Of a DNA stretch of 37,908 nt, positions 33,819 through 37,908 are shown in pieces. Made by a program: the position numbers and the translations under genes. Each line of letters begins with the position of its first letter. The first letter of the stretch is position 1. The DNA is from an uncultured Bacilli bacterium (GTDB taxonomy: Bacteria; Bacillota_I; Bacilli_A; RF39; UBA660): NCBI GenBank assembly GCA_944351765.1, contig CALVPR010000013.1:1-37908 (forward strand). The letters are read 5' to 3'. The notes under the pieces are model-generated. The model did not search any database. It worked only from the letters and a program-made list of their open reading frames with translations, and was not told where the DNA came from.

Positions 33819-33851
33819 TAAAAAAATAAAGTGTTTAAAATTCACTTTATT
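33819..33851 (-). terminator. Terminator of the LysM gene
   Basis: Stem AATAAAGTG/CACTTTATT with a nine-base loop, then a T-run on the minus strand. It overlaps the stop codon at 33847. Confidence 0.8.
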
Positions 33852-34953
33852 CTATTATTAAAATTTGGCCTATACTAAGTAAGTTACTTGTTAAATTATT
33901 TAACTTTTTTAAATTATCTACGGTTGTATTAAATTTTCTAGCTATTGAATATAAATTATCTCCACTTTTTACAACGTAAGTAGTTTCTGTTACAGAAGTA
34001 GTAGGTATTTTTAATACTTGACCTATACTAAGTAAGTTACTTGTTAAATTGTTTTCTTTTTTAATAGCATCTACTGTAACATCATAGTTTTTAGCAATAG
34101 AATATAGACTATCTCCACTTTTTACTGTATATGTAATTGTATTACTAGTTTCTCCCTGATTACTATTTGGTACTTTTAACACTTGACCTATAGATAAAAC
34201 GTCACTTGTTAAGTTATTTGCACTTTTTAATTCAGATACTGTGGTTCCTAATTTATTTGCTATTCCATATAATGTATCCCCTTTTTGTACTGTATAAGTA
34301 TCTGCAGTTACTGTAGCACTAGGTAGTAATAGTGTTTGACCTATTGTTAATGTATCACTTGTTAAGTTATTAATTGTTTTTAATTCATTTACTGTTGTAT
34401 TATTATCTCTTGCTATTGAATACAAACTATCTCCTTTTTTAACTACATATATATTTTTTTCATCATCTTGAACATATTTTTCAGGTATTTTTAGTAGTTG
34501 ACCAACACTTAGTGTATTACTAGTTAAATTATTTAATTTCTTTAGTTCGTCTACAGTAGTACCTAATTTGTTTGCTATTCCATATAGTGTATCTCCTTTT
34601 TGCACTGTATAGGAATTACTAACAAATCCTTCTGGTGGTACATATTTAAATCCTTTATAATCTGCAACTGCTCTAATTACTGCTTCTGCTAATCTTTGAT
34701 AATTTTCTTTTAAAAATTGTACATTAGCATTACTATCATCTATAAAGCCATATTCTACTATTATTGGTTCTGTTTTACCAGTATTTCTATGAATAAAATA
34801 ATAATCTTTACTAGTATCAGAAGGTAATCTTCTTTGATAATATTTTCTAGTTGATTGACCTTCTGCTCCAATAGACTCTAATACTTTTTTAGCAAGAGTA
34901 TCAGTATTTCTAAGTGCATAAATTACTTCAGCACCGGTACCACCTCGCGATGG
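33847..34953 (-). pseudogene. 5'-truncated N-acetylmuramoyl-L-alanine amidase with five LysM repeats
   Basis: The open frame begins only after a TGA at 34954-34956 and has no start codon at the amidase end. Its first residues are GGTGAEVIYALRNTDTLAKK, the middle of an Amidase_3 domain. It keeps YYQRRLP and the catalytic Glu in IIVEYGFIDD, but the first 80-100 residues with the zinc ligands are missing. A linker and five LysM domains follow ([YT]VxxGDxLY[GS]IA at about residues 117, 167, 220, 275 and 325), ending at the final repeat. Intact relatives hydrolyse the peptidoglycan stem-peptide bond, often in spores. A GTG at 34605 could still start a LysM-only protein. The break coincides with the start of the neighbouring cassette. 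Confidence 0.8.
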
Positions 34954-34967
34954 TCAAAGTGTAACTA

Positions 34968-35636
34968 CTACATCCATTCAAAATGTACTCTTTTTTTCTC
35001 ATTTTCTGTTATAGTAATATCGTTTTCTTCAAAGTTTGATTTAAAATTAAGAGAGTCATTATAGAAAAAATTTAATATGAAATTAATAAAATTATAAAGA
35101 GAAAGAGACCCCATCATTGGAATTCTACACTCATCATAGTTGCTTATTGTCATATGTGTTATTGGGTGAACAATATCAATATGATTATTTATATCATAAT
35201 CAACACGTATTACTACTGGTATGCCAAGTTCTTCTTCAAACCAATCTATTTCAAAATTATACATGTCTTTATCTATAATTTCTTCTTTTGACCATAAATA
35301 ATTGTGCTTTTTTAGAAAGATCAATCGTTCTTTAATTATTTTACCATCCTCAATTATAAATTCATATTGAATTATACTTCTATCATATAAAAGTATATTA
35401 TATTCCTTCCTTTCAAGTAGCGTGTCCATAACTTTTTCTATAGGTAAATGTTTATCATATAAAATATTTGATTCATTTTCTCTACCACTACGAGAAATTT
35501 CGACTATCTTATCATTTTCTAAAACAGAGTGCATCTTTGAATCTCTAATCATATTTTTTTCATAAAGTTCTTTAATTATATTATTATAATCCTTCGAAAA
35601 CTTTTGAAGAAATTTTTTATTATTACTGTTCATCAT
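34968..35636 (-). CDS. DUF2290-like protein, partner of the helicase
   Basis: 222 residues, mixed alpha/beta, no membrane segment. The second half shows IRVDYD...HIDIVHPITHMTISNYDECRIPMMG, then a hydrophobic FINFILNFFYND stretch. This pattern (Asp, HP..H, SN..xCRIP, F..F[IL]..[NF]FY) is what I associate with DUF2290, a family of unknown function found beside helicases. The conserved His/Asp/Cys set might be a metal site or active site; that is inference. It overlaps the helicase stop by 14 bases, so the two are translated as a pair. A second ATG lies at 35633. Confidence 0.7.
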   Translation of the reverse strand: MMNSNNKKFLQKFSKDYNNIIKELYEKNMIRDSKMHSVLENDKIVEISRSGRENESNILYDKHLPIEKVMDTLLERKEYNILLYDRSIIQYEFIIEDGKIIKERLIFLKKHNYLWSKEEIIDKDMYNFEIDWFEEELGIPVVIRVDYDINNHIDIVHPITHMTISNYDECRIPMMGSLSLYNFINFILNFFYNDSLNFKSNFEENDITITENEKKRVHFEWM

Positions 35637-37698
35637 CTACTACAAAATCCCTTAGCCTGCGCTTGTATTCCTCTCCAAATAATTCTTTTAAAAGTATTTC
35701 CATATTACCTTGATTTTCATCAATATATTTTTTAGTATTTGTTAAGGCCTCAGAGTCATCTTTACTAATATCCTTATTCAATATTACCATTTTTTTTCTA
35801 TCTTCTTCAGTAGGATATTTTTTAAAAAATAATTTATAATCATTTTCTTTAACTTTATCGAATTCAAAACATAGTTTTTCCATTGAACTTCCATAACCAT
35901 AAACTCTTACCCATCCTTTACTACGAGTAATTGCAGTGAAAAGGGCATTTCTATCTTTTGTTCTGCTTAAAGTTTCTATACAACGCTGAGCATTCAATAT
36001 ATATACATAATATGCCTCATTTCCTTTTGCTCTAAAAATTGTACTATATACTATTGAATCATTTCTAAAAAAATCTTCAGGATTTGTAGAACCAGCTTGA
36101 TGAATATGTATATCTCCATACTCATCGAAATTAGAATTTATCAACAACTGAATTTTAGATAAATTATTAGATGCATTAATACCATCTAAATCAATAATCA
36201 TTATATCATTGGGATTTAAACTATCATTGACAATATTGGCTTTTATTGATTGAAGCAGTTTATTATAAACTTGATCTGAATCATCAAATTTCTCAATTTT
36301 TATCAAATCGTTAGGATCAGCATTTAAAAAATCTGGACTAGTACTTCTATCTCTATATAAAGTAACTGGCAATCCTTCAACTATATTTTCATCATTTTTA
36401 TAACCAATGCTCTGCCAAACATCAGTAGAATTTGGTATTTGTATCATACCTTCTTCTCTATATAGTCCCATACCTAATGCATGGGCTGTAACAATAACTC
36501 TTGACTGATTTCTATAACAAGTTACCAATGGTGTATCTTTACTAATATTAAACCCAAATATTTTTTCTGGAGAATCCATAGATAATTCATTCAATCGTTG
36601 TAACTCATCATAGGCATAGACTAATCTATTTTCGCTTCCCAACACTTTGCAGCACAATTTCAAAAATGAATCATTAAAATCCTGAGCTTCATCTATTAAT
36701 ATACAATCATATAGCTTAACAAATTCTTTTCCACAGTCTAACACCTCAGCACATAACAAATCAAAAGGTCTGCTTGCAAGAGGATATTTTCTCTTGGCTT
36801 GATAAAAAGTATATGATTGAATTTCCATATTTTTACATATATCGTAATATAATCCATCAGATGATGAAGATCCCCATGCATGCATTATTTTCAACTTATT
36901 GAAATCTGGATGTCTACCATCGTTTCTAGTCATATAAAACTTATCAATTAAATTATATAATTGATTCTTTAAAGTTCTAGTGTAATATGTAACAACAATA
37001 GTCCATTCAGGATGAACAGTATGTAATTCAACAGCTTTTCTTGCTAATACAACGGTTTTACCTGAACCAGCCATTCCTCTAATTCTTTGTATACCAATTG
37101 GATCTTCCATTATTGCATTCATTTGATTACAATCATGTTTTTCAATAATATCATTCATTTCATCAATTAATAACGCTTTTGAACCATCACGAGCGTTTTC
37201 ATGATAATTTTTCTTATTTAGTCCTTGTGCTTCTTGTAATCCCGATGAAATCATATCAACCTTTTGATTATCAATATTTTCTAAAGTATCATTAATATAT
37301 TTATTTATATCTTCGATACTAATAAATATAGGATAATCATCAATCTTTTCCATTTCAATTAATGAATAAGAACAAACATTTATTGAGAAAGAAAGTTGTC
37401 TTCTTTTAACTAAAAAACTACACCTTTTCAATTTAGACTCAATTTTATTATAAAGCTCATCTTGAATTTTACCATAATTTAGTATTTCTGTATCAATAAT
37501 ATTAATAACAAAAAAACCATAATTAGATACAATTGCTAGATCACATATTAATTGATCACTAGTATATTCGATTGAATATAATGGATATCCAATATAGGCA
37601 TCACCATATATATCTTCTTTTTCATTAAATATATTTATTATACTTTCAATAATATCTTTTTTTTCAACATTTTCAGTATTTCCTGAAATATTCAACAT
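35623..37698 (-). CDS. Superfamily 1 (UvrD-like) helicase with N-terminal nuclease-like domain
   Basis: 691 residues. Residues about 15-110 hold a NERD-like pattern (YSIEYTSDQLICDLAIVSNYGFFVINI), resembling the restriction-endonuclease-fold segment with Asp followed by a beta-hairpin. The ATPase core shows Walker A RGMAGSGKTVVLARKA at about 207-222, Walker B LIDEAQD at 334-340, RAKGNEAYYV near 556-565 and motif VI FTAITRSKGWVRVYG near 587. This set fits stand-alone UvrD/Rep-type helicases (COG0210/COG3972) seen in defence islands. It follows a fic gene (AGGAGG ribosome site) and is coupled to the DUF2290-like gene. The nuclease call is tentative; the helicase call is firm. Confidence 0.88.
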   Translation of the reverse strand: MLNISGNTENVEKKDIIESIINIFNEKEDIYGDAYIGYPLYSIEYTSDQLICDLAIVSNYGFFVINIIDTEILNYGKIQDELYNKIESKLKRCSFLVKRRQLSFSINVCSYSLIEMEKIDDYPIFISIEDINKYINDTLENIDNQKVDMISSGLQEAQGLNKKNYHENARDGSKALLIDEMNDIIEKHDCNQMNAIMEDPIGIQRIRGMAGSGKTVVLARKAVELHTVHPEWTIVVTYYTRTLKNQLYNLIDKFYMTRNDGRHPDFNKLKIMHAWGSSSSDGLYYDICKNMEIQSYTFYQAKRKYPLASRPFDLLCAEVLDCGKEFVKLYDCILIDEAQDFNDSFLKLCCKVLGSENRLVYAYDELQRLNELSMDSPEKIFGFNISKDTPLVTCYRNQSRVIVTAHALGMGLYREEGMIQIPNSTDVWQSIGYKNDENIVEGLPVTLYRDRSTSPDFLNADPNDLIKIEKFDDSDQVYNKLLQSIKANIVNDSLNPNDIMIIDLDGINASNNLSKIQLLINSNFDEYGDIHIHQAGSTNPEDFFRNDSIVYSTIFRAKGNEAYYVYILNAQRCIETLSRTKDRNALFTAITRSKGWVRVYGYGSSMEKLCFEFDKVKENDYKLFFKKYPTEEDRKKMVILNKDISKDDSEALTNTKKYIDENQGNMEILLKELFGEEYKRRLRDFVVDDEQ

Positions 37699-37710
37699 AG
37701 CTTTTACCTC

Positions 37711-37908
37711 CTACAATAACTCTAAATATTTTTTTAGAATTTCAACTTCTAATGTAGTAATTAATTTAACAAAATCTGTATAATTACCAGTCATATGTGC
37801 CTTATCTAACGCTTCATAATATTTTAATCTTGATTCTTTCTTTATAATTACAGGATTATATCCACTATTCATTAAATCTAAATTCATAAGTAATCTTGAT
37901 GTTCTTCC
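37711..37908 (-). CDS. fic: Fic-family protein, C-terminal fragment at window edge
   Basis: The last 65 residues of a gene that enters from beyond the window. It begins GRTSRLLMNLDLMNSGYNP, the end of the Fic active-site motif HxFx[DE]GNGR, then KESRLKYYEALDKAHMTGNY, typical of bacterial Fic proteins. Fic proteins transfer AMP (or other nucleotides) to target proteins; the catalytic His and any inhibitory helix are out of view. The stop codon is 12 bases before the helicase ATG, so it is in the same operon as the helicase and the DUF2290-like gene. Confidence 0.85.
   Translation of the reverse strand, partial: GRTSRLLMNLDLMNSGYNPVIIKKESRLKYYEALDKAHMTGNYTDFVKLITTLEVEILKKYLELL

Follow-up and report, generated by a model that had tools for sequence, protein, structure and literature searches.

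A divergent member of the antiphage system Helicase+DUF2290 appears to be the cargo of an integrative island, of the large-serine-recombinase type, that sits in a cell-wall amidase gene, with the adjoining Fic gene belonging to the island; we give this reading a probability of roughly 0.78. The DNA analysed (the window) is the entire contig G000:C13, 37,908 bases long, from a MAG of 1.29 Mb in 64 contigs; the Fic gene is accordingly truncated where the contig stops. The features concerned are as follows.

33847..34946 (end approximate), (-): C-terminal half of a broken N-acetylmuramoyl-L-alanine amidase gene (Amidase_3) with five LysM repeats, from comparison with the genes of relatives within the genus
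34940..34946, (-): host-side GAGGTGG at the crossover, common to the intact amidase gene
34947..34964, (-): island-side arm of attR, TTACACTTTGACCATCGC, from a 16-mer search of the family genomes and a junction table
34968..35636, (-): DUF2290 protein, 222 aa, the proposed effector (Pfam PF10053 E=2e-21; PADLOC PDLC02999 E=1.6e-26; alignment A7; AF2 model)
35623..37698, (-): SF1 (UvrD-like) helicase, 691 aa, motifs intact (PADLOC PDLC03002 E=1.5e-180; Pfam UvrD_C_2 E=7.7e-9; AF2 model)
37363..37668, (-): N-terminal domain of the helicase, residues about 11-112 (AF2 secondary structure; alignments A1 and A4)
37711..37908, (-): C-terminal end (65 residues) of a Fic-domain protein, an island gene open at the contig end (PADLOC PDC-S04 E=1e-7; SoFic E=0.0013)

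A preliminary description of this DNA had given the coordinates of three close-packed genes, a 12-base gap between Fic and helicase and a 14-base overlap of helicase and DUF2290, all of which are exact. Its suspicion that the locus is defence-related is borne out by PADLOC and Pfam matches, far stronger than chance would give, to a named antiphage system. The combination, which it had not recognized as a named one, is identified as Helicase+DUF2290 by the PADLOC models, the DefenseFinder name and the published description (PMC9122126). On these matches the two genes are a divergent member of that system. The DUF2290 protein exceeds the curated cut-off of PF10053 (76.8 bits against 25) and scores 91.1 bits in PADLOC, while the cognate SF1 helicase model PDLC03002 is matched at 600 bits over residues 11-684, with intact motifs GSGKT, DEAQD, YDELQ, CYRN, RAKGNE and TAITRSK. 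The helicase lies directly upstream of DUF2290 on the same strand, the 14-base overlap included. The system was described by Rousset et al. 2022, and the published member specifically inhibits phage T7 (PMC9122126); DefenseFinder tracks it as Rst_HelicaseDUF2290, as cited in PMC12278908.

The pairing of the two genes is conserved over long distances. In all 24 loci where sequence was available downstream of a distant helicase relative, ten of them on plasmids and 14 on viral contigs, DUF2290 follows directly, four more viral contigs ending too early to be informative; the adjacency of helicase homologues and the 222-residue protein that the preliminary description had proposed to check thus holds in every readable relative. 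These distant pairs share 26-39% identity with the window's and span Proteobacteria, Cyanobacteria, Actinobacteria and Bacilli; the nearest relatives, L002 and L003, are 79% and 63% identical. Occurrence nearer to hand is patchy and rare, at one of seven genomes of the genus and two of 386 of the family; when the phylum was sampled further, the window alone rose above the cut-off. No relative of either protein was found among 50,697 phage records. A scan of viral contigs with the single proteins found none, and the alignment-based scan yielded 18 loci. In two relatives the helicase frame is split into two pieces (L003:6001-8060 and L124:4302-5997), possibly through decay or sequencing error.

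The third gene has a different history. The window's Fic fragment shares 91-93% DNA identity with Fic genes in four genomes (G001, G004, G115 and G153), where similarity ends at or just past the Fic stop codon and is followed by differing genes. Full Fic genes occur in 49 of 386 family genomes, a count that leaves out the window's own genome, whose fragment is too short, and DUF2290 in two of 386; the two occur together in the window's genome alone. The remainder of the window's Fic was not found elsewhere in the assembly. What is left of the active site in the window is the motif end, GRTSR; the whole motif is intact in 33 of 34 long relatives. An HTH-Fic gene of this kind is widespread in the family, in the 49 genomes counted above, often between housekeeping genes and with exchanged neighbours.

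Fic therefore belongs to the island and not to the defence pair, a conclusion that rests on its neighbourhoods. That it acts with the helicase and DUF2290, as a toxin or a regulator of the pair, is quite unlikely. Such a partnership would fit the tightness of the 12-base gap, which makes co-transcription likely, and the PDC-S04/SoFic-like nature of a full-length relative (E=1.1e-35 and 5.7e-34), SoFic being a defence protein. However, the helicase adjoins Fic in one of 37 Fic neighbourhoods, that of the window, while in the 36 further loci the same Fic stands ahead of other cargo, a few of them ending at or near Fic. Nor was Fic found beside the pair in L002, in L003 or in the 24 distant relatives, and the co-occurrence of fic and DUF2290 that had been proposed as a check came to 0 of 49 family genomes with a full Fic. 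On this comparison of neighbourhoods in both directions we reject a Fic-helicase-DUF2290 module of three genes. Of the earlier proposal that the three act together, the part that stands is the unit of helicase and 222-residue protein; on neighbourhoods and co-occurrence alike, Fic lies outside it.

The preliminary description had missed the setting of these genes, in which homology to an amidase breaks off about 20 bases beyond the stop codon of DUF2290. Here TTACACTTTGACCATCGC-GAGGTGG leads into an Amidase_3/LysM gene of which the C-terminal half is present; the intact form in G003 reads AATGCGG-GAGGTGG-TACCGG. Identity of this half to the genes of relatives within the genus is 92-97%; in the L002 relative LysM is matched at E=2.3e-84, with Amidase_3 in the N-half. 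A search of the window's assembly gave no N-half of the amidase. The 16-mer GACCATCGCGAGGTGG occurs in eight of 386 family genomes, against none for a reversed-pattern control. Inserts end at the same amidase codon in 15 different family genomes, and the window carries both the attachment arm and an amidase split at this common codon; in G004:C10 the gene is intact and unoccupied. Three loci (L029, L033 and L035) hold complete inserts that are flanked by both halves of the amidase and contain a large serine recombinase with Resolvase, Recombinase and Zn-ribbon domains. In five others (L076-L080) the recombinase lies just upstream of Fic; four of the five continue with cargo and then the amidase C-half, while in L077 the amidase is not reached. 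It could be argued that the junction is an assembly chimera and that the cassette does not lie inside the amidase gene, since the genome is a metagenome assembly and the contig ends in a gene nearly identical across genomes. We consider this very improbable: the junction recurs in the 15 separate genomes with differing inserts, and in L029, L033 and L035 a complete insert shares a single contig with the two halves of the amidase.

A search of the genome for the amidase N-half, the missing part of Fic and the recombinase did not recover the left end of the island; this end and the recombinase are not seen because the contig ends inside Fic. In the window's assembly the best match to the island recombinase has 42% identity and no link to Fic. 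The host genome holds four further serine recombinases (G000 C31, C45, C2 and C10), 36-42% identical to the island type, so that other islands may be present. Among seven elements the likeness of the attachment arms tracks the relatedness of the recombinases (Mantel r=0.41, exact p=0.02), a correlation that from so small a test is suggestive, not strong. Junctions in which arm, core and arm follow one another were found within occupied sites at L032:2228, where the next element can be read, and at L038:3879, where the contig ends soon after, and they are consistent with serial insertion. The junction at L038:3879 joins two different arm types.

Many of the inserts at the amidase codon contain a large serine recombinase and Fic together with exchangeable cargo, the latter often of known defence genes. 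Cargo named by PADLOC includes, besides Helicase+DUF2290, a type II restriction-modification pair and an AbiL-like ATPase (L029), HamA/HamB of Hachiman with restriction-modification (L033), a type IIG restriction-modification system with AbiEi/AbiEii (L035), AbiEi/AbiEii (L042) and PDC-M43A/B (L036). For the cargo behind Fic in L031:648-2356 (two genes) and L079:5022-6701 PADLOC gave no match, and these genes are candidates for unknown defence genes. One locus, L042:3000-13000 (G003:C2), shows an amidase N-terminal fragment and AbiE and other cargo followed by a second, intact amidase, the N-terminal half of which is nearly identical; a duplication has perhaps restored the gene. We found no description of a serine-recombinase hotspot in this amidase gene in the open literature searched, which does not prove its absence there. 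The hotspot, with its core of recombinase and Fic and its swapped cargo, is a more interesting observation than the defence pair, which was already known, and its other cargo, several of which lack a family match (e.g. L031 and L079), offers leads to new defence genes.

The N-terminal domain of the helicase had been described as nuclease-like. The AF2 model of the helicase (pLDDT 83) matches UvrD and SLFN11/SLFN14 best among solved structures (Z 26-27, model core), the human Schlafen proteins tying with UvrD as its top solved folds. For the N-terminal domain the predicted order of secondary structure, alpha-beta-beta-beta-alpha-beta, is that of PD-(D/E)XK/NERD domains, and in this respect the earlier description stands. 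The catalytic D...(E/D)xK residues do not support it. D53 is kept in the window, on the second strand, and is missing in some of the aligned relatives, while the E-x-K pair of the third strand is absent throughout alignments A1 and A4 (N66 and I68 in the window). Because E-x-K is absent in the aligned relatives, the domain is probably not a nuclease. Missing nuclease residues together with housekeeping neighbours had been named in advance as evidence against the preliminary reading, and part of this, the absent E-x-K, is what was found. We reject an active nuclease domain on its residues in A1 and A4. The possibility that the helicase is itself the effector, in the manner of a NERD-helicase with an active N-terminal nuclease and DUF2290 as accessory or inhibitor, could draw on the predicted fold order with D53 in its typical place and on a weak PADLOC match to NERD+UvrD (E=1e-20). 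As that match is confined to the helicase part, and the third-strand residues and in some sequences D53 itself are lacking, we judge it improbable. Fic and a nuclease can thus be dropped from the list of likely components.

In the DUF2290 protein, alignment with 26 relatives (A7) leaves D85, R144, H157, H161, R171 and F183 invariant, plus the start methionine, a set with two histidines and a strand that bears arginine and aspartate. The patterns noticed earlier, HP..H and CRIP, correspond to H157-P158..H161 and C170-R171-I-P, and H157, H161 and R171 are indeed among the invariant residues. The polar ones among the invariant residues suggest that DUF2290 is an enzyme. No relative of DUF2290 with a solved structure was found. 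A fold search with the AF2 model (pLDDT 84) against solved and viral structures gave no match at E<=0.001, and the best row in VIA-align 2, a Mediator subunit (Z 7.8 over 99 residues), falls within the range of chance matches.

A further view, to which we give a rather low probability, is that DUF2290 is a translation toxin of the TumE type, for which the helicase serves as a conditional antitoxin or activator; TumE inhibits translation, as shown in E. coli (PMC10584680). Both proteins have the order beta hairpin, R-x-D strand, histidine-rich strand and helix, and TumE, in its own pair, is usually encoded downstream. An hhalign comparison of the DUF2290 and TumE/DUF6516 alignments scored 30.4, which none of 200 column shuffles reached (best 23.8), nor did the reversed profile (15.6) or unrelated natural windows (<=18.9). 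The hhalign probability is, however, just 37%, falling to 9% with a narrower TumE set; none of 12 DUF2290 proteins matches Pfam TumE (PF20126) at E<=10, and TumE was picked for comparison after the motif had been seen. We found no solved structure of TumE to set beside DUF2290. A TumE family search of eight plasmid records was empty, and the approximate, consensus-like queries of the plasmid search served solely to fetch annotated DUF6516/TumE proteins. The resemblance, weak but above background, suggests an attack on RNA or translation, and it remains a lead because the family search puts DUF2290 outside TumE.

Taking the island reading, the following course of events may be proposed. A recombinase, absent from the contig, would join the island attachment site to the GG core in the amidase codons and so split the gene; the window's copy of the island may be mobile. 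The helicase would bind and unwind phage nucleic acid, for example replication intermediates or ends, with its non-catalytic PD-(D/E)XK-like N-terminal domain as a putative binding or docking module. Once activated, it would release or switch on DUF2290, which would act as a toxic effector and stop phage growth, probably by enzymatic attack on RNA or translation. DUF2290 H157, H161 and R144 and helicase K214 are offered as residues for testing. A broader picture is more speculative and, taken as a whole, rather doubtful: that serine-recombinase islands across the family dock in one amidase gene with a recombinase-Fic core, swap defence cargo behind Fic and insert serially, and that DUF2290 is a helicase-controlled, TumE-like translation toxin. 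If true, docking-site islands that swap defence cargo would make the amidase gene a ready place to mine unknown defence genes.

Compared with the published Helicase+DUF2290, the window's pair is alike in both genes and in their order, orientation and overlap, in the helicase motifs and in the invariant residues of DUF2290. Its sequence is distant (30-38% helicase identity to proteobacterial plasmid copies), and its carrier, in an uncultured Bacilli lineage with small genomes, is an island of the serine-recombinase type, not a P4 satellite or prophage. The window's copy is a predicted antiphage system, and protection against T7 is the published member's, for which no mechanism had been worked out in the literature examined; a named, mechanistically unexplained defence system is now placed in a lineage far from the original one. 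With Hachiman (PMC12278908) and Gabija (the GajB helicase) it has in common a plan of helicase sensor and separate effector, and a HamA/HamB pair occupies the same amidase site in G005. However, Hachiman joins a nuclease, HamA, to the SF2 helicase HamB, whereas the window's helicase is SF1 and DUF2290 is unrelated to HamA in Pfam scans. In TumE/DUF6516 toxins the conserved R-x-D and histidine motifs come in a similar order, but the likeness is weak and comes without a significant family match. Full-length relatives of the window's Fic match both the SoFic and PDC-S04 models and carry the HPFVDGNGRTSR active-site motif and the SxxxEG inhibitory motif. Unlike SoFic, they have an N-terminal HTH_17, and their match ends before the last part of the profile, the C-terminal domain, so that the full layout is not reached (the best relative, L036, covers 42-265 of the 361 profile positions, preceded by HTH_17); Fic here behaves as an island gene with changing neighbours. 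SCC-type islands use serine recombinases, in Ccr pairs, and insert serially. The amidase-site islands resemble them in their serine recombinase, fixed chromosomal site, exchangeable cargo and tandem junctions (L032:2228 and L038:3879), but they sit inside a coding sequence and disrupt the amidase, and each has one recombinase in place of a Ccr pair, with a conserved Fic beside it.
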